Shown here in pieces: positions 3,430 through 29,595 of a stretch of 32,182 nucleotides of DNA; position 1 is the first letter of the stretch; each line of letters opens with the position of its first letter. Source of the DNA: an uncultured Flavobacteriales bacterium (GTDB lineage: Bacteria; Bacteroidota; Bacteroidia; Flavobacteriales_E; Vicingaceae); contig CAJXMH010000032.1 in NCBI GenBank assembly GCA_913056345.1, forward strand, positions 1 through 32,182, given 5' to 3'. The notes under the pieces were generated by a model, which saw only the letters and a list, made by a program, of their open reading frames with translations, searched no databases and was not told the DNA's origin. The position numbers and the translations under genes are program-made.

Positions 3430-4734
3430 ATGGGAACATTCGAAATTAATGGTGGAAAGAAATTAAAAGGAGAATTAGTTCCACAAGGCGCTAAAAATGA
3501 AGCACTGCAAGTTCTCTGCGCCGTGCTTCTTACCCCTGAAAAGGTGGTAATGAAAAACGTTCCTGATATTTTAGACGTCAACAAATTGATTGACCTCTTG
3601 AGTGATCTCGGCGTTAAAGTTGAAAAGCTGAATGCTACTGATTATGCTTTTCAAGCAGACCAAATTGATATAGAATACCTCAATACCCAAGAGTTTAAAA
3701 AGAAAGGGGCTAGTCTTAGGGGCTCTGTCATGATTCTTGGTCCTTTGCTCTCTCGATTTGGCAAAGGTTACATCCCACGGCCTGGTGGTGACAAGATTGG
3801 AAGAAGAAGACTGGACACCCACTTCATCGGTTTTCAGAAGCTTGGCGCTAAGTTCATTTACAATAAAGACAATAAATTCTACAAAGTAGAAGCCAACAAT
3901 TTAAAAGGCACCTACATGCTTTTAGACGAAGCTTCTGTTACGGGAACTGCCAATATTGTAATGGCTGCAGTGCTTGCAAAAGGAACCACCCAAATTTATT
4001 ATGCAGCCTGTGAACCTTACATTCAGCAGTTATGCAAAATGCTCAACCGTATGGGAGCTAAAATCTCGGGAATTGGTTCTAATTTGCTTACTATAGAAGG
4101 AGTTGAGTACCTCGGAGGCTGTGAGCACGCTATTTTACCAGATATGATCGAGATTGGAAGTTTTATTGGCTTAGCAGCCATGACTCAATCTGACATTACC
4201 ATTAAAAATGTCTCTTATGAAAATTTAGGCATCATTCCTGACACTTTTGCCAAATTGGGCATCAAAATGGAATTGAAAGGAGATGACCTACACATTCCCG
4301 AGCAGGAAATCTATGAAGTAGATACTTTTATTGACGGTTCGATCATGAATATTTCTGATGCTCCATGGCCAGGTTTCACTCCTGACCTCTTGAGCATTGT
4401 TTTGGTAGTTGCTACCCAAGCGAAAGGCTCGGTTCTGATCCATCAAAAAATGTTTGAGAGTAGGTTATTCTTCGTGGATAAATTGATTGACATGGGGGCA
4501 CAAATTATTTTATGTGATCCGCATAGGGCAACAGTCATTGGGCTGGAAAGAAAAACCAAACTCAAAGGAATTCAAATGACTAGCCCAGACATTAGGGCTG
4601 GTGTTTCCTTGTTGATTGCAGCACTTTCTGCCAAAGGAACCAGTGTGATCCATAACATTGAACAAATTGATCGCGGCTACGCTAACATTGATAAGCGACT
4701 CAATGCACTAGGCGCGGATATTAAGCGTTTGTAA
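3430..4734 (+). CDS. murA: UDP-N-acetylglucosamine 1-carboxyvinyltransferase (MurA)
   Basis: First committed step of peptidoglycan synthesis: transfer of enolpyruvate from PEP to UDP-GlcNAc in the cytoplasm. It is 434 aa, close to the usual ~420, with an EPSP-synthase-like fold. Conserved Lys22-Asn23 are present in QGAKNEAL, and the DIRAG segment carrying the late active-site Arg is present near the C terminus. The loop that normally reads GGC in E. coli (Cys115, the fosfomycin target) reads PGGDKIG here, so the position is Asp121 (codon 3790-3792). Cys-to-Asp MurA enzymes (Chlamydia, Mycobacterium) are active and fosfomycin-insensitive. The ATG lies 4 nt after the DUF4290 stop, so the gene is part of the helicase-DUF4290-murA-tlpA run. 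Confidence 0.96.
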   Translation: MGTFEINGGKKLKGELVPQGAKNEALQVLCAVLLTPEKVVMKNVPDILDVNKLIDLLSDLGVKVEKLNATDYAFQADQIDIEYLNTQEFKKKGASLRGSVMILGPLLSRFGKGYIPRPGGDKIGRRRLDTHFIGFQKLGAKFIYNKDNKFYKVEANNLKGTYMLLDEASVTGTANIVMAAVLAKGTTQIYYAACEPYIQQLCKMLNRMGAKISGIGSNLLTIEGVEYLGGCEHAILPDMIEIGSFIGLAAMTQSDITIKNVSYENLGIIPDTFAKLGIKMELKGDDLHIPEQEIYEVDTFIDGSIMNISDAPWPGFTPDLLSIVLVVATQAKGSVLIHQKMFESRLFFVDKLIDMGAQIILCDPHRATVIGLERKTKLKGIQMTSPDIRAGVSLLIAALSAKGTSVIHNIEQIDRGYANIDKRLNALGADIKRL

Positions 4735-7664: not shown

Positions 7665-7718
7665 ACATTCGAGAGCTTTAGTATGGCTGATTTTAGTTTT
7701 TAGCTTTCTTACTTTAAC

Positions 7719-7758
7719 CGCAAAGCACTCAAAGTAATCGCAAAGAACAAAAAGTCAT
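7719..7758 (+). repeat. Two 20-bp degenerate tandem repeat units
   Basis: The unit beginning CGCAAAGCACTCAAAGT (7719-7738) is followed directly by a diverged copy beginning CGCAAAGAACAAAAAGT (7739-7758). About 16 of 20 positions agree. It lies between the YkgJ-type gene and mnmD and has no coding potential. I recall similar CGCAAAG-rich stretches between genes in other Bacteroidota, but cannot confirm that here. Confidence 0.5.
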
Positions 7759-7788
7759 GGCTTAGCAATCAAATTTTTAAAAGGTCTC

Positions 7789-7851
7789 AGCCAGCTGCTC
7801 TAGGGTTTATGCTTTTTACTTTCAGCTCGTTACCTTAAACTTTTAACTTTG
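7789..7851 (-). repeat. Degenerate heptanucleotide tandem repeat (9 units)
   Basis: Read on the minus strand, the 63 bp divide into nine consecutive 7-mers with consensus NNRAGYN. Examples are ACGAGCT, GAAAGTA, AAAAGCA and TAGAGCA. The array lies downstream of mnmD, in the orientation in which an mnmD transcript would read it. The stretch between it and the mnmD stop (7852-7904) is also purine-rich on that strand, with a weaker 16-nt periodicity. It matches the array at 28578-28696. Confidence 0.55.
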
Positions 7852-7904
7852 CCTCTCTTTAACTCTTATTCTCTTTAACTCTTTTTCTATTCTACTTTTC
7901 TGCT

Positions 7905-8570
7905 TTATACCTTCCTCGCTCTCAGCATCTCACGTTTACCACCTGGAGGACCTGCTAATTTTTCTACTTCAAAGCCTATAGCCTTTAGTCTTCTACGAAT
8001 CACACCCTTCACACAATAGGTAACCAATAACCCCCCTTTAGTCATACTATCATGGAGTTTTCTAAAAATAGCCTCTTCCCAAAGTTCCGGCTGTTTCTCT
8101 GGAGCAAAAGCATCAAAATAAACAAGGTCGTATGCCTGTTCAAGTGAAAGCGACTGCAAGCTTGCCTGCTTTTTTAAAAGGCTAAGCTCCTCTGTTAGTT
8201 GCACGGGTGCTTCCCAAGCTGATTGATGAATCTTATTGAAAAGTGCGCGACTTTCACCTAGTAGATTAGGATAATTGAGATTTTGAACTTCATCTAAAGA
8301 AAGCGGAAAAGCTTCTATGGCTGTATAGTTTACTTTCAATCCACTACCCTTTAAAGCTAGAGCACTCAGCCAAACGTTCAAGGCCGTTCCCATGCCAACT
8401 TCCAACAATTTAAAATTAGATTTCTCAGCGCTTTTCTGTTTTAATCCCGCTTCAATGAAAATGTGGTTTGACTCCGCTATAGAGCCGTGCTTTGAGTGAT
8501 AATGTTCATCCATCTCTTCTAAATAAAAAGAGTGGGATCCATCTGCAGTTACTATCAATTTCCTCTTCAT
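7905..8570 (-). CDS. mnmD: tRNA (5-methylaminomethyl-2-thiouridine)(34)-methyltransferase MnmD
   Basis: A 221-aa SAM-dependent methyltransferase of the Methyltransf_30 (DUF752) family. It methylates nm5(s2)U34 to mnm5(s2)U34 in tRNA wobble positions. The SAM-binding segment is EVGMGTALN (57-65), the catalytic region has YFDAFAP (151-157), and the C-terminal signature is GPPGGKREM (207-215). In enteric bacteria this domain is the N-terminal half of bifunctional MnmC. Here it stands alone with no FAD oxidase half, as in other lineages. It is divergent from the thioredoxin-fold gene and shares a palindromic promoter with it. Confidence 0.92.
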   Translation of the reverse strand: MKRKLIVTADGSHSFYLEEMDEHYHSKHGSIAESNHIFIEAGLKQKSAEKSNFKLLEVGMGTALNVWLSALALKGSGLKVNYTAIEAFPLSLDEVQNLNYPNLLGESRALFNKIHQSAWEAPVQLTEELSLLKKQASLQSLSLEQAYDLVYFDAFAPEKQPELWEEAIFRKLHDSMTKGGLLVTYCVKGVIRRRLKAIGFEVEKLAGPPGGKREMLRARKV

Positions 8571-8627: not shown

Positions 8628-9260
8628 ATGGGGCAATCAGAATTAAGTCATCTCAAGGAAGAATCAATACAAGCAAGTCTCAGTTACGAAGCATACCTTG
8701 AGCTTATGGAGGCCTTAGTGGCCAAAGGCAAAACATCTGGTCCTAACCAAAGTGAAGAGTTTGCCCAATATACCAAGATGAACTTAAAAAGAATGCAAAG
8801 GCTCAACAAAACCATTGTGCTGAGCGATGCTTTAGCTAGCCAGTGCGAGAAAGTCGATCAGGAAATTACTTTTTTAGCCCTTACAGAATATTGGTGCGGA
8901 GATGCTGCTCAGAACCTACCTCTTTTCAATAAGCTCGTAGAGCAAAATCCAAAACTTTCCTTTAAGCTTCTTTTCAGAGATGAAAACCTTGACTTGATGG
9001 ATGCTTTCTTAACCAATGGAGGAAGATCCATCCCAAAAGTGATTGCCTTAGATACTCATAGTTTAAAGGTTTTAGGAAGTTGGGGGCCTCGACCTACTCC
9101 CGCCCAAGAGATGGTTTTAGCATTTAAAAAAAGCGGTCAGGACGATTACCAAGAATTTTTGAAGGAAATCCAATTGTGGTATGCTAAAGACAAAACCTTA
9201 AGCCAGCAAGCTGAATTAATACTTGCTTTAAGTGATTGGTTGAGCAAACACAATAAGTAA
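8628..9260 (+). CDS. Thioredoxin-fold family protein with a single active-site cysteine
   Basis: A 210-aa cytoplasmic protein of the Bacteroidota thioredoxin family whose motif reads EYWCGDAAQ. Cys90 is present, but the second cysteine of CxxC is replaced by Ala. The thioredoxin fold spans about residues 75-165, with a cis-Pro in RSIPKVIALD and a helical N-terminal extension. With one active-site cysteine it cannot act as a classical disulfide reductase alone; a mixed-disulfide or non-redox role is possible. It has no signal peptide. It is divergent from mnmD and 34 nt upstream of a lipoprotein gene that appears to have its own promoter. Confidence 0.8.
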   Translation: MGQSELSHLKEESIQASLSYEAYLELMEALVAKGKTSGPNQSEEFAQYTKMNLKRMQRLNKTIVLSDALASQCEKVDQEITFLALTEYWCGDAAQNLPLFNKLVEQNPKLSFKLLFRDENLDLMDAFLTNGGRSIPKVIALDTHSLKVLGSWGPRPTPAQEMVLAFKKSGQDDYQEFLKEIQLWYAKDKTLSQQAELILALSDWLSKHNK

Positions 9261-18365: not shown

Positions 18366-19844
18366 TTATCGACTGTAATTTGGTGCTTCTCTTGTAATGG
18401 AAACATCGTGTGGATGGCTTTCTCGGATTCCGGCATTGGTTACCTTAATGAAAGTTGATTCATTTTTCAGCTTCTCTATACTATTGCAACCGCAATAGCC
18501 CATGCCTGCTCTTATGCCTCCAATCATTTGGTAGATCACTTCAGAAAGTGACCCCTTGAACGGCACTCTTCCGCTGATTCCTTCAGGAACCAATTTTTTG
18601 ATATCATCTTCCATGTCTTGAAAATAACGGTCTTTAGAACCTTTTTGCATGGCCTCAAGCGAACCCATTCCGCGGTAAGATTTGAATTTTCTTCCTTCAT
18701 AAATAATAGTTTCCCCTGGCGACTCTTCCACCCCTGCAAAAAGTGAGCCAGCCATAGCTGTATCTGCTCCTGCAGCTAAGGCTTTTACAATGTCGCCTGT
18801 AAAACGAAGTCCACCATCAGCTATTACCGGAATGCCAGTTCCTTTTAGGGCTTCCGCTACCGTCATCACCGCTGAGAATTGCGGCACTCCTACTCCGGCG
18901 ATCACTCGGGTGGTGCAGATCGAACCAGGACCAATTCCTACTTTAATGCCATCAGCTCCTGCTTCAGCTAAAGCTATTGCAGCTTCTTTAGTAGCAATGT
19001 TTCCTACCACAACGTCAAGCTCACTAAATTGAGCCTTTACCTTTTTAAGGGTTTCAAGCACCCCTTTAGAGTGGCCGTGGGCTGTATCAATGATTACCGC
19101 ATCTACTCCTACTTGTACAAGAGCAGCTATGCGCTCCATCACATCTGCCGTTACGCCTACAGCTGCTGCTACGCGTAATCTACCAAATTGGTCTTTGCAT
19201 GCGTTTGGCCGCTCGCGCAGTTTAATAATGTCGCGGAAAGTGATCAAACCGATCAAGCGGTTGTCCTTATCCACCACGGGTAACTTTTCGATTTTATGCC
19301 CTTGTAAAATATCTTCTGCTTGACTGAGATCAGTGTCTTTGGTAGTAGTGATGATGTTCTCACTCGTCATTACTTGGTCTACCGCTTCCTTCATGTTCTT
19401 TTGAAAACGCAGGTCACGATTGGTTAAGATTCCTTTTAACACTTGATTATCATCCACCACAGGAATTCCGCCAATGCTATTCTCCTTCATCAACTGCAAG
19501 GCTTCAGCAACCGTTGCTCCTTCCTTCAAGGTAATTGGGTCTTGGATCATGCCGCTTTCAGAGCGCTTTACCTTGCGCACTTCTGCCGCTTGCTGCTCAA
19601 TTGACATGTTCTTGTGCAATACGCCAATCCCGCCTTCTCCTGCAATGGCAATTGCTAAGGCAGATTCGGTTACCGTATCCATGGCAGCAGATACGATTGG
19701 GGTATTGAGTTTGATGTTTTTAGTAAAACGGCTTGAAATATCAACTTCTCTTGGCATTACCTCAGAATAGGCAGGAACTAGCAGAACGTCGTCGTAAGTA
19801 AGGCCTTCTGTTAAAAATCTAGAATTTTGGGATAATTCGCTCAT
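18366..19844 (-). CDS. guaB: Inosine-5'-monophosphate dehydrogenase
   Basis: Oxidises IMP to XMP with NAD+, the first committed step of GMP synthesis, in the cytoplasm. It is 492 aa with a TIM barrel interrupted by a CBS pair (~100-215). The catalytic Cys310 is in GIGPGSICTTR, and the flap residues YRGMGS are present. The frame is open upstream to 19895, but ATG 19844 gives the usual MSELSQNSRFLTEGLTYDDV start, and a -7 box at 19865-19872 lies inside the longer version. The next gene, a foldase, begins 14 nt after the stop, so guaB leads the foldase-MoxR run. A strong terminator separates it from the upstream gene. Confidence 0.95.
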   Translation of the reverse strand: MSELSQNSRFLTEGLTYDDVLLVPAYSEVMPREVDISSRFTKNIKLNTPIVSAAMDTVTESALAIAIAGEGGIGVLHKNMSIEQQAAEVRKVKRSESGMIQDPITLKEGATVAEALQLMKENSIGGIPVVDDNQVLKGILTNRDLRFQKNMKEAVDQVMTSENIITTTKDTDLSQAEDILQGHKIEKLPVVDKDNRLIGLITFRDIIKLRERPNACKDQFGRLRVAAAVGVTADVMERIAALVQVGVDAVIIDTAHGHSKGVLETLKKVKAQFSELDVVVGNIATKEAAIALAEAGADGIKVGIGPGSICTTRVIAGVGVPQFSAVMTVAEALKGTGIPVIADGGLRFTGDIVKALAAGADTAMAGSLFAGVEESPGETIIYEGRKFKSYRGMGSLEAMQKGSKDRYFQDMEDDIKKLVPEGISGRVPFKGSLSEVIYQMIGGIRAGMGYCGCNSIEKLKNESTFIKVTNAGIRESHPHDVSITREAPNYSR

Positions 19845-19864
19845 TATGGCTTTTTTGAGATCGA

Positions 19865-19872
19865 CAAAAATA
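19865..19872 (-). promoter_or_regulatory. -7 promoter box of guaB
   Basis: On the minus strand it reads TATTTTTG, a full match to TAnnTTTG. It is 20 nt before ATG 19844, so the mRNA would have a leader of roughly 15-18 nt. Its position within the frame of the longer candidate ORF supports the 19844 start. No -33 TTG at the standard distance. Confidence 0.5.
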
Positions 19873-19907
19873 AACATATTGCCTTTCTCGGGCATCTTAA
19901 TTAATGC

Positions 19908-19935
19908 AAAAAGGCTCTGCTTTCGCAGAGCCTTT
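19908..19935 (-). terminator. Intrinsic terminator of the large surface-protein gene
   Basis: AAAGGCTCTGC (19910-19920) and GCAGAGCCTTT (19925-19935) form a perfect 11-bp stem. On the minus strand the loop is GAAA, a GNRA tetraloop, followed by TTTTT. It lies 22 nt after the stop of the gene ending at 19958. Confidence 0.92.
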
Positions 19936-19957
19936 CGCTATTATCCATTCGCAGCTT

Positions 19958-22900
19958 TTAGCGGATCAGCGTAACTGTTCCTTTTCTGCGGTGTTCTTCT
20001 CCATCAGCGTCAACAAACCGAATGGTGTATACGTACGAACCTTGCTGTGCAGGCTCTCCATTTACCTCTCCGGTCCATCCTTTGTTAATGTCGCGGGTTA
20101 CGAAGATCTCTTCTCCCCAACGGTTGTAAATGATCATTTCATACAAACTAAAGTCAAAGAACTGACCTTTAGGGGTGAACATTCTATTTACTCCATCTGG
20201 TGCAAAAGCATTTGGCACATAAAATAAGGGCTTCTGCGTTACACACACTTCATTCGAATTTGAGACTGCATTGCTCAAGTTGTTAGGGAAAGAAGTTGTC
20301 ATCGGTCCTTGAACTGCTTCTACTCGGTAGCAATACTGACCAATTACAAGCGCATTGTCATACACATCATCAATGTAGCTGTTTGGATCACCGTTAGCGG
20401 TTGGAGGCACTGTAGCGTAAAGCTCAGTTGCAGCTGCTCCATTAAATCCACGGTAAATGTTGTAAAAAGCTACAGCACTGTCCCATCTTTGGTATTCATT
20501 CCAACGTAGGGTATTGGTGATGGCCTCATTATCAGCTTCCACCTGAAGGTGAATGGTTCTACCCACATTAGAAGTATCGATGGCGTTACCACAAGTATTC
20601 TCGATCACTACATTGTAGAAGTAACTGTAGTTATCTGTCTCAGCTGAAGGATCTACGTAATTGATCAAGCTGTTCTTAAACTCAGCTGCACCATCAAAAC
20701 GCGTGAGTGGTTGCATATCATCTTGATTCAAACCGCGATATACTGTGTAACCACCCTGCTCGATCGAAGTATCCTTGTAAAAACTCAATTCTACTTCTTT
20801 GGTAGGCAATACCGTTGCATAATGCAAGTAGCGGTAAAGTGGCTCCTCCTGGAAGAAGGTAGTATCTGAGTCAACATTTGAAGTAGAAGAAAACTGATTT
20901 CCTCCATCTGTAGCTTTGATGTAATAGTAATAACGCTTCTCACCTTCCGTAATCTTGTGATTATAGGTGGTATCTGTCGTTTCACTATTGGGCACCAAGC
21001 TAAAGGGTCCTCTCAGGTTTTCACCTACATACACTTCATAGCTTACCTCAGTGGTATCTCTAAAATCGGTGTATGGATTCCAAGTCAGGATATTTACAGA
21101 ATCACACTGCACAAACTCTACATCTACATCCATAGTAGTATGAAAATCGAATTGCTCAAAGGCATCATCGGTTGAGTTGGTGCAAGTATCCACTGTTTGA
21201 GCAGTTAACGTATAAACCGTATCACTTGGGTCTAGCACTGTTGTTGGAATTACGGCTCTTTGAGCTGACCATGGTACTTCTGCAGCCCTAACCAAGAAGC
21301 TTCCAGGAACAGGCGCCGTAACATCTTCTTCTAAAATGTTAACTGCATGCTTTAAGCCTGCATCTACCGACCAATAGATCTCCACTTCTCCGGTTTGTGG
21401 ATTAACGGTTACAACATCTACCGGTTGAGTCGGTATAATAGACTCGCCTCTGATATCGATCTGCTGGTACGTTGATCTACTCACACAACCTGAAACGTGT
21501 TCGATGGTCAGGTGATAGTTGATGGATGGGAAATCACATCCACTTCCTTCATTCAGCGGATCATTGTCGAGGTAAGTGTTTTCAGTAGCGTCAATAAATG
21601 CAGCTTGCGGGGAACCAAATGGTGGCAAGCTTTGATCAAATCCCTTATGGAATCTGTATCTACTTAAATTAGAAGCTCCATTGGCATTCCAATTTAACTC
21701 CACTTGGGCATCATTTAAAGATACAGGAGGATTGCTGTTTGAATCTAGCTGCACTCCAGTTAATTGGATTGCGCTAATCACATCACTGTATGGAGAGTAC
21801 TCTGTCCCGTCACAACCTGAGCGAGAACGTGAACGGAATTCATAGAATCCATTAAACGCATCTATCGTATTAACATTCACAAAGGTATCGCGCTTAGCAA
21901 TTAAATTACTGCCTGCAAAGGTTTGCCATGCTCCTCCATCTCTGCGGTATTCAATTTCATACGCTAACCAGTTATCTGTACTGTCTACCGTTCCTGCCGC
22001 TTGATTTTCTGCATTGTTATCTCCTAGCGGACGAAAAGTTAGCGTCACTGAACCATCTGCTTCTACGAAAGTACAATAGATGGGTGGTGCGGGCACGATT
22101 TCATCCGTTCTAAAATCAGTGGAAGGGAAATAGGCATGACTAATAATTACATCATTGTTTTGATCAAAGGCCACAACCTTGATCCAATGCTCTGTATTCT
22201 TTGTAACAAACACATCAACAGAATCTTGATTGGGATCATTAATCGTTGTACGCAAGGCGTAAGGTCCACTTCCGTTAACACTGCTGGTATCAACGTAAAT
22301 GCGATAGCCCGCAATGCCGTTTCTAAAACCAGTTGGATCATCTAAACCTACTCTAAAGAATCCACCACATTCATCAAATCTCCCCTGTGGTCTAAAGTTG
22401 GAGTAGATCTCACTCCAAGCACGGTTGCCCGGCTGACAGGCATCAATGGATTCGATGATAAATTGTTGATTCGAATTGAGGCCATTTGCCCCTGCCATCA
22501 GAAGAGAATCTTGTTCTACATTAAATGAATCTACCTCGGTAACATTTGGATAAGGTGGATTTAAAGGCGCTAAAGGATCAGTTAATACTCTAAAGCTTCC
22601 AACTGTTCCTGCATTGGCTCGGTCAATACGGAAATACACATCACCATTCGGACGAATCTCTAGCGTATCCAAGCGTGGCTGTGGTATATATCCTCTGCTG
22701 ACCATCAGCATGGTATCTATGATACTGAAAGTTCTATAGGTTAAGGTATCCAAGCTATCTTGTCTTGGTGCAGTTCCTTCTCTCCACGTTACCACGGTGT
22801 CTCTAGCTTCAATTCTAAAGCCCGGACGACCATTACAAGTATTAGTAGCCAAGGTGTAGCTTAACGCATTGGTGTCACCTCTCAGGTACCAATTCCCTTC

Positions 22901-27644: not shown

Positions 27645-28568
27645 ATGAAAAAACTACTTCTTCTTTCCGCCATTCTTTTAAGCATAGGTAGCCTCAAAGC
27701 CCAATACGACATGGACTTTGGATTCCAATTAGGAGCAACCAATTATGTAGGTGAAATTGGTTATGCCTCTGAAACGAGGGATTACCTTGATATAAGCTTG
27801 AGGACCACCAATTTTGCAGTAGGTGGCTTTTACCGTTACAGCTTTACCCCCAACATTGCTGCTAAAATCCAAGTAAATTACTTACGTCTTTCTGGAGCAG
27901 ACAGCTTATCAGATAATCCGGTGCGTTACGGAAGAAACCTTAGTTTTAGAACTGATGTGCTCGAGGCAGCCTTAACAGGTGAATACGCATTCTTCACCAT
28001 GAATGATTTGAATCGCAGAAGCAGAAGTCGAGTAGATTTTAAGTCTTATGCTTTTGCAGGAATTGGCGCTGCTTTCTTTTACCCCTATGCCCAATACAAT
28101 GATCGTTGGTATTACTTGCGCCCTTTGCAGACTGAAGGAACTGAAAATGCCTACGATGAAATGACCATCAGCGTACCGATGGGTTTGGGTGTCAATTTCA
28201 CCTTCAATAAAAAAATAAGGCTGGGTCTTGAAGCCAGTTACCGCATGACATTTACGGATTACCTAGACGATGTGAGCACAGATTATGCTGCAGATACAGA
28301 ACTCCCTTTTACAGAGTCTTTCCTGTTTTCGCAACGCAGTCAAGAAGTATATCTTTCAGGTGACTTAAGAGAGGGCATGCCTGACCCTAGATATTATGGT
28401 TACAATGAAGGTAATCAACAGGGAGCTATTAGAGGAAATCCCGATAACAATGATGGTTTTTTTATGATGCAATTTACCCTTTCATGGGTGATCAATAGCG
28501 GAAATAACTTCTACAAATCACGCTACGGCAATATTGTTAACCGCAAGCGGAAGAGAAGGAAGTTTTAG
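27645..28568 (+). CDS. Outer-membrane beta-barrel protein, DUF6089-like
   Basis: A 307-aa protein with signal peptide 1-19 (MKKLLLLSAILLSIGSLKA|Q). The mature N terminus YDMDFGFQLGATNYVGEIG and alternating hydrophobic strands, such as AVGGFYRYSFTPNIAAKIQV (20 residues), indicate a small outer-membrane barrel of roughly eight or more strands. It matches what I know as the DUF6089 family of Flavobacteriia. The C-terminal residues NRKRKRRKF are strongly basic, which is unusual for a barrel end and may lie in the periplasm. It has its own promoter, and a heptanucleotide repeat array begins 10 nt after the stop. The function is unknown. Confidence 0.85.
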   Translation: MKKLLLLSAILLSIGSLKAQYDMDFGFQLGATNYVGEIGYASETRDYLDISLRTTNFAVGGFYRYSFTPNIAAKIQVNYLRLSGADSLSDNPVRYGRNLSFRTDVLEAALTGEYAFFTMNDLNRRSRSRVDFKSYAFAGIGAAFFYPYAQYNDRWYYLRPLQTEGTENAYDEMTISVPMGLGVNFTFNKKIRLGLEASYRMTFTDYLDDVSTDYAADTELPFTESFLFSQRSQEVYLSGDLREGMPDPRYYGYNEGNQQGAIRGNPDNNDGFFMMQFTLSWVINSGNNFYKSRYGNIVNRKRKRRKF

Positions 28569-28577
28569 TATATGGCT

Positions 28578-28696
28578 GCGAGCTTAGAGCTGCGAGCTGA
28601 AAGCAAAACTCGACGAGCGGAAAGCTTAAAGCAAATAGCATAAAACAGCGAGTTGAAAGCAAAGAACTGTGAGCGGAAAGTCAAAGGCGAGGAGTT
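28578..28696 (+). repeat. Degenerate heptanucleotide tandem repeat (about 17 units)
   Basis: The 119 bp read as 17 consecutive 7-mers with consensus NNRAGYN. Examples are GCGAGCT, GAAAGCA, ACGAGCG, GAAAGCT and GCGAGTT. A recurrent two-unit block, GCGAGC(T/G)GAAAGC and variants, starts at 28578, 28592, 28613, 28648 and 28669. The intervals are 14, 21, 35 and 21, all multiples of seven. The array is in the sense direction of the barrel gene just upstream. A minus-strand frame of 68 codons across it is judged spurious. Confidence 0.75.
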
Positions 28697-28833
28697 CAGA
28701 CTTTCTTGCCCGTCCGAAATGAAATGGAGGCGGGAGAGATTAGCAAATAATATTTGAGTAAGCTCATCCAAAACTATTTACATCCTGTTTAGCTTGGATT
28801 TCTTTTTAGGAAAACCGCAATCAATTAAAACTC

Positions 28834-29595
28834 TTACAGTTCGCGATTCAAGCGGATAAACTGAAAGAGCTTGCGAAAGGGTTTAAGGAAAAAAGTGAGT
28901 TTCCCGGTTTTTAAACCATTGATCCGCCAAGCTTTTTGATCCTCCTGATTACCACGCAAACGTGCTACCAAATTCAAATTGCTCATTCCTCCTTCTCGCA
29001 TCTTTACAATTACTTTTGGTAAATAAGCTAATTTAATCTGATAGCGGTGAATAAAACGCAACATCAGTTCATAGTCAGCAGCAGAGCGTAAATGACGGTT
29101 AAAGGCACCATACTGTTCATAGCAAGATTTGCGCACAAAAAAAGTGGGATGCGGTGGCATCCAACCTCTTTTAAAACTGTTCTTGCGGTATTTCCCGCTT
29201 TTCCAATAGCGTTTAACCTTCGTGGGATTGTCACGCTCTACATAGATTAGATCGGCATAGCAAGCATCAACCTTTTCCTGCTTGAACTTGGCTAACATTT
29301 CAGAAATCACCTGCGGATAAGCATAAAAGTCATCCGAATTCAAAATCCCAATCACCTCTCCACTAGCTAAGGCAATTCCCTTATTCAGGGCATCATACAT
29401 CCCTTGATCGGGCTCACTCAGCACTTGAGCGATTTGGTCTTCATAGCGGCCAACAATTTTCAAGGTCTCATCCGTGGACTGCCCGTCGATAATCAGGTAT
29501 TCAATATCAGGATAATCTTGTTTAAGCACCGACTGTATGGTATCTTCTACCGTTTCGGCACTGTTGTAGGTTACGGTGATGATGCTAACTTTCAA
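28834..29595 (-). CDS. Family 2 glycosyltransferase
   Basis: A 253-aa GT-A fold glycosyltransferase, cytoplasmic or membrane-associated. It shows the nucleotide-sugar binding start MKVSIITVTYNSAETVEDTI (20 residues), the IIDGQSTDET loop, GMYDALNKGI, and the metal-binding NSDD (86-89). It resembles the WcaA-like enzymes of capsule and O-antigen clusters. The start codon is TTG at 29595, since the family motif begins directly after it. It follows the carbamoyltransferase by 10 nt, so the two are co-transcribed. The sugar donor and acceptor cannot be told from sequence. Confidence 0.92.
   Translation of the reverse strand: MKVSIITVTYNSAETVEDTIQSVLKQDYPDIEYLIIDGQSTDETLKIVGRYEDQIAQVLSEPDQGMYDALNKGIALASGEVIGILNSDDFYAYPQVISEMLAKFKQEKVDACYADLIYVERDNPTKVKRYWKSGKYRKNSFKRGWMPPHPTFFVRKSCYEQYGAFNRHLRSAADYELMLRFIHRYQIKLAYLPKVIVKMREGGMSNLNLVARLRGNQEDQKAWRINGLKTGKLTFFLKPFRKLFQFIRLNREL

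Follow-up and report, generated by a model that had tools for sequence, protein, structure and literature searches.

The window, that is, the whole stretch of 32,182 nt analysed here, comes from an uncultured Flavobacteriales bacterium and carries an array of 7-nt units between two convergent genes. The locus is composed of the following features:

27645–28568, plus strand: upstream gene for a DUF6089/outer-membrane beta-barrel protein of 307 aa, with its TAG stop at 28566–28568 (ORF; Pfam PF19573, PF13505)
28566–28702, plus strand: heptad array of some 19 degenerate RAGYNNN units (lag-7 statistics, in-register array call)
28703–28833, no strand assigned: remaining spacer with weak hairpins only (fold z-scores, terminator search)
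28834–29595, minus strand: convergent neighbour, a family 2 glycosyltransferase gene (ORF; Pfam PF00535)

The array is sense to the barrel gene, and its core (28578–28696) reads as 17 heptads with the motif RAGY. The heptanucleotide periodicity proposed in an earlier, sequence-only reading was borne out by the autocorrelation suggested there. Lag-7 identity across 28578–28696 is 0.491, versus 0.292 ± 0.043 in 3000 dinucleotide shuffles (z 4.65); as in heptameric intergenic tandem repeats in general, 7-nt units follow each other head to tail more often than by chance. The mean identity over lags 7, 14, 21, 28 and 35 reaches 0.519 (shuffles, 0.290 ± 0.021), and the top 100-base lag-7 stretch of the window begins at 28575. 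The array had rightly been described as degenerate, and because of this TRF detects just its initial 3.6 copies (28575–28599). The block GCGAGC(T/G)GAAAGC, said to recur at intervals of 14, 21, 35 and 21 nt, does so at 28578 (half), 28592, 28613, 28648 and 28669 when 1–3 mismatches are allowed, but the exact GCGAGCNGAAAGC is found at 28592 alone in the whole genome. The start of the array had been placed 10 nt after a stop codon. It is indeed close, but the distance is 9 nt, with TAG ending at 28568, and when units are counted in phase, the stop codon itself opens the array: the TAG forms part of the first unit (TAGTATA; compare the internal unit TAGCATA), and the array ends at about 28702. 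The general rule behind this proximity had been missed.

The array is a real heptad array that is neither coding nor a terminator, and it is part of a genome-wide set. A 7-nt period had been held to preclude coding, which is not strictly so, since a repeat of seven residues is possible; here, however, stop codons lie inside the array and no ORF in the list for the window runs across it, and a coding repeat was rejected. An intrinsic terminator, a known RNA family and a stable RNA structure were rejected as well. No consensus intrinsic terminator (GC-rich stem plus T run) was found at 28400–29000, in agreement with the view that the array is not a simple terminator, the array region has no Rfam match at gathering score, and the predicted structure of the array RNA (28566–28702) does not go beyond that of shuffles (z 0.08). 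In the spacer, a hairpin at 28704–28739 (z −1.60) and a wide-loop stem at 28766–28799 ahead of a T-rich stretch (z 0.30) are both weak. A plasmid match was sought and none was found.

In a search of genome contigs, no named relatives of the barrel gene were confirmed. The C-terminus of the barrel protein (...KF*) is kept in relatives and, therefore, the array here starts at the native gene end. In most relatives a terminator lies ~20–60 nt past the barrel-gene stop, and the array-free orthologous ends do have terminators. Heptad-like sequence follows the same gene in genomes G004, G007, G021 and, more weakly, G011, with units that differ between the orthologous ends. All five barrel genes with arrays, the window gene included, stop at TAG, versus 5 of the 24 others (p about 0.002 by the authors' own arithmetic; the genomes are not independent, because two of them share a genus).

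The 2.9-Mb genome was covered by pattern searches and sequence stretches, and six-unit RAGYNNN with up to 3 mismatches gave 123 overlapping matches. These fall into roughly 20–25 mostly intergenic loci, so that, like heptameric repeats in general, the arrays are dispersed, intergenic and present in many copies. Neither outcome that the sequence-only reading had named as contradicting it, a lag-7 signal no stronger than in shuffles or a lack of further arrays in the genome, was obtained. The sequence-only reading had proposed both this search and one of relatives, and the latter revealed exact six-unit arrays in 13 of 41 genomes. Of the 392 Bacteroidota genomes searched, 101 contain exact eight-unit arrays; these genomes represent 58 of 179 genera. 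(RAGYNNN)n also occurs, as longer arrays, in Cyanobacteria, Proteobacteria, Chloroflexi, Spirochaetes and Planctomycetes. The units vary by genome and by array (AAAGCNN, GAGTATT, AAGTTGG, AAGTAGG, GAGTTAT and others). In some genomes the backwards control YGARNNN outnumbers RAGY. With this control abundant in other genomes, RAGY as the sole universal core was rejected; it is one flavour only.

The position of the arrays relative to genes was assessed on 123 distinct arrays, drawn both from this genome and from further Bacteroidota; 99 of them are intergenic. An array was regarded as anchored when its start, read along the RAGY strand, fell within a range from 30 nt ahead of to 10 nt past the last base of a stop codon belonging to a gene on that strand. 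In total, 41 of the 99 intergenic arrays are stop-anchored, versus 6 in the mirror arrangement (p 1.8e-7), and under a strict rule, with the stop wholly ahead of the array, the counts are 17 versus 4 (p 0.007); these p-values assume independent arrays, and the counts take genes as longest ORFs and arrays as chosen by pattern, several of them from one genome. Of 33 arrays between convergent genes, 26 are closer to the sense stop. A pan-bacterial set, Bacteroidota included, gave 23 versus 6 anchored arrays (strict rule, 7 versus 4). The onset is sharp, with lag-7 identity rising from ~0.25 in the final codons to 0.7–0.9 at and past the stop.

As an unselected check, 20-kb stretches at a fixed coordinate were examined in 33 genomes. 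Period 7 (with its double, 14) leads at gene 3′ ends, at 11/217 versus 0–5 for other lags up to 13; because arrays were already known from many of the 33 genomes, the point of this figure is the contrast between periods rather than a phylum average. Seven of these 11 period-7 segments begin within 5 nt of a stop. Two sampled relatives, G007 (12/33) and G004 (9/34), have period 7 at 26–36% of their roomy gene ends. In four relatives, 11 of 16 ends have the purine-rich strand in sense orientation, compared with just 4 of 11 in the 33-genome sample; because of the latter count the bias is not universal, and a universal sense-strand bias was rejected.

Array-bearing gene ends also differ in their stop codons. 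TAA is depleted in three of the four genomes tested: 5/16 array-bearing ends versus 394/631 in this genome, 2/9 versus 44/68 in G004, and 1/29 versus 14/23 in G331; in G007 the difference is not significant. G331 (L381–L410) has 65 junction matches of TGAGRNG–TGAATRG heptads, including inverted pairs between convergent genes. The stop TGA is here commonly the opening unit (TGAGGCG TGAGACG ...), and several unrelated proteins have array-encoded ends, REA* or RET*. One such protein has an orthologue in a genome of the same genus that lacks these arrays, and this orthologue ends in QIQP* with TAA and an ordinary terminator; in G427, of the same genus, the 8-unit array searches found none. The units of G331 are ordered, stop-proximal GTGAGRC preceding distal GTGAATR in 21 of 23 arrays. 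Convergent genes each have their own array, and in several cases a terminator-like hairpin separates the two. An all-frame stop device was considered and rejected, with stops no denser in arrays than in column-permuted units (9.05 versus 9.08 ± 0.49 per 100 nt).

Of 46 stop-anchored arrays in the Bacteroidota set, 9 have a terminator-like hairpin within 150 nt on their far side, and none has one inside or ahead of it. Because the arrays sit between stop and terminator, the stop-anchored ones are most likely transcribed as 3′UTR. The arrays are, then, mostly intergenic, anchored to stops far more often in the sense than in the mirror arrangement, followed by the terminator in those cases that show one, and accompanied by altered stop usage.

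A second array of the same kind is present in the window, as part of a composite:

7905–8570, minus strand: Methyltransf_30-type methyltransferase gene, upstream of the second array (ORF; Pfam PF05430)
7842–7888, minus strand: period-8/16 purine-rich repeat between the stop of gene 7905–8570 and the second heptad array (TRF, sequence)
7790–7849, minus strand: second heptad array, downstream of and sense to gene 7905–8570 (pattern matches, context)
7714–7755, minus strand: TTTGNGNNCTTTGCGGTTAA element on the same strand as the second heptad array and downstream of it (TRF, genome search, sequences)

The order octads, heptads, TTTGNGNNCTTTGCGGTTAA is met near other arrays of the genome as well as at 7714–7888, and an octad-heptad-CTTTGCGG order is repeated at several loci. 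In the genome, 10 of the 21 matches to TTTGNGNNCTTTGCGGTTAA have a heptad array no more than ~100 nt away, in most cases with the strand shared, and are spread over six separate loci, while its backwards control has zero matches. This may point to composites being copied as a whole. The longest stretch that heptad arrays at different loci of the genome have in common is 16 nt, inside the unit-permuted range, and the mean shared stretch is slightly raised (8.87 versus 8.01 ± 0.19 in unit-permuted arrays); with no long shared stretches, recent copying among these arrays was rejected. The barrel-gene array has neither the octad nor the TTTGNGNNCTTTGCGGTTAA module. The octads, purine-rich period-8 (16) repeats of AGTNGAAR type, are seen at 7842–7888 of the window, L134:19809–19940 and L149:15660–15730, and often adjoin heptad arrays. 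At L134:17178–17642 and 19534–19997 (G000 C1:185.7–188.5 kb), octads, heptads and CTTTGCGG form higher-order tandem copies of ~210–250 nt, which reach the contig end.

Enterobacterial REP/BIME elements are short, dispersed palindromic hairpins in 3′UTRs, between stop and terminator. The arrays share this placement, but the window array is tandem and, with a fold z of 0.08, does not form a palindromic hairpin. Classic cyanobacterial STRR units are of CCCCRRT type. STRRs resemble the window array in unit length, tandem form and intergenic location; the sequence-only reading had set them apart by sequence, and no CCCCRRT-type unit is indeed present in the array, although (RAGYNNN)n is found in cyanobacterial genomes too. 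STRR heptanucleotide repeats are cited for Calothrix PCC 7601 in the study of Rehm et al. 2015 (PMC4692102), which describes Xanthomonas and Nostoc heptads, GGGAATC and GGGGA(C/T)T, as dispersed, intergenic and near ORF ends, those of Xanthomonas being transcribed according to RNA-seq. With these the present arrays have in common the 7-nt unit, dispersed intergenic occurrence, a preference for the coding-strand downstream side of ORFs, paired inverted arrangement and varying length. The Xanthomonas and Nostoc units are quadruplex-forming, with a G3–G4 tract in every unit, whereas no GGG run exists within 28566–28702; and Xanthomonas heptads lie on average 28 nt from the 5′ ORF, whereas the present arrays often begin at the stop codon and can replace it (PMC4692102).

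It had also been stated that no named repeat family of such form was known in Bacteroidota. This was too strong, because TAACTGA and "other heptamer direct repeats" are on record for five Bacteroidetes in MacGregor 2015 (PMC4679880), and because (RAGYNNN)n occurs in further phyla. TAACTGA direct repeats are reported there from Beggiatoaceae, Cyanobacteria and some Bacteroidetes; they share with the present arrays the 7-nt unit, the intergenic location, the occurrence in Bacteroidetes and the lack of a known function. Forward TAACTGA arrays can overlap the coding end by no more than 18 nt, owing to their own stops, but in the Guaymas genome the repeats are mostly located just ahead of start codons, while the present arrays follow stops (PMC4679880). 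The window units are NNRAGYN and not TAACTGA. The anchoring at stop codons, the replacement of stops and the composite arrangement with further repeats seem to be novel. The arrays are called a new variant because the available parts of PMC4692102 and PMC4679880 mention neither base-precise anchoring at stops that are themselves replaced, nor a skew in stop usage, nor a polarity of units, subscription literature being mostly outside the scope of this comparison.

Taken together, the array behind the barrel gene is probably a heptanucleotide satellite of some age that has partly decayed; it would lie in the 3′ untranslated region of that gene, grown by slippage and bounded by coding sequence. 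Such a satellite would start from a chance 7-nt duplication at or beside a stop codon and would expand via strand slippage and unequal recombination. On the gene side, selection on the protein would halt its growth, or else the last residues would be overwritten and a new stop supplied; growth on the far side of the stop would be free, and point mutations would blur the array into the NNRAGYN pattern. The satellite would thus accumulate where coding constraint ends and, in some flavours, be strand-filtered at the RNA level; that the purine-rich strand is usually the one kept in mRNA in the RAGY flavour points to a filter acting on RNA or on transcription. Units that differ between orthologous gene ends are expected of fast-turning satellites, and the array-encoded C-termini and stops of G331, absent from the same-genus orthologue, support overwriting. 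A positive function is not needed to explain the array. Counting against this explanation, independent slippage predicts neither the conserved unit order of G331 (21/23) nor the octad-heptad-CTTTGCGG order at several loci. The strand bias, moreover, is missing in the unselected 33-genome sample (4/11), and gene ends were taken as longest ORFs and arrays as chosen by pattern.

A 3′UTR function or an active copying process is possible. An element that selection keeps beside stops because it affects mRNA stability or ribosome release, or sets a register for protein binding, would account for the anchoring at the stop codon, the position between stop and terminator, the conserved unit polarity of G331 and the arrays, with different units, behind the same gene in five family genomes. 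It is nevertheless unlikely, as most orthologous gene ends carry no array, stop density gives no all-frame stop sign, the array RNA is unstructured beyond shuffles, unit sequences vary freely among genomes and the named flanking genes are functionally unrelated. Copying of a dispersed composite from one gene end to another, whether through gene conversion or through a mobile process of unknown kind, and with the heptads as one module, appears quite improbable. The fixed, mostly same-strand order of octads, heptads and TTTGNGNNCTTTGCGGTTAA at several loci, the proximity of TTTGNGNNCTTTGCGGTTAA to heptad arrays and the unit types and polarity common to about 65 junctions in G331 argue for it, but the longest shared stretch stays within the unit-permuted range despite the raised mean, the other modules are missing from the barrel-gene array, and neither a target-site duplication nor an enzyme was found. 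An ordinary simple-sequence repeat without any special tie to stops, the anchoring being an artefact of array and gene calling, is very improbable: the arrays were selected by the RAGY pattern, ORFs entering an array are cut short by the stops inside it, and strand bias is absent in the unselected genomes, but the strict rule still gives 17 versus 4, the protein end beside the window array is conserved, and most unselected period-7 segments begin at or near a stop.

Beyond the satellite reading of the single array, we entertain, with considerable doubt, the broader proposal that heptad satellites are born preferentially at stop codons, a process tied to gene ends (for example, translation or transcription termination) seeding, orienting and copying 7-nt arrays that later overwrite stops and C-termini throughout a genome, G331 being an example. 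If gene ends do give birth to or tolerate heptad satellites, a large and little-studied share of bacterial 3′UTRs would stem from one process, which would also alter stop codons and C-termini. This would explain odd C-termini noted by annotators, and the question of why bacteria favour 7-nt repeats would become testable at a defined place.

Further repeats were seen beside heptad arrays. Heptads with an AATGNNN core lie at L140:8079–8329 and 8749–8813 in the same genome, beside a GAGTATT array, and at L136, near 1150–1500 and 3480–3700 (minus strand), hairpin-like CTTCGACTKCGCTCnGGG repeats adjoin heptad arrays in several near-identical copies.
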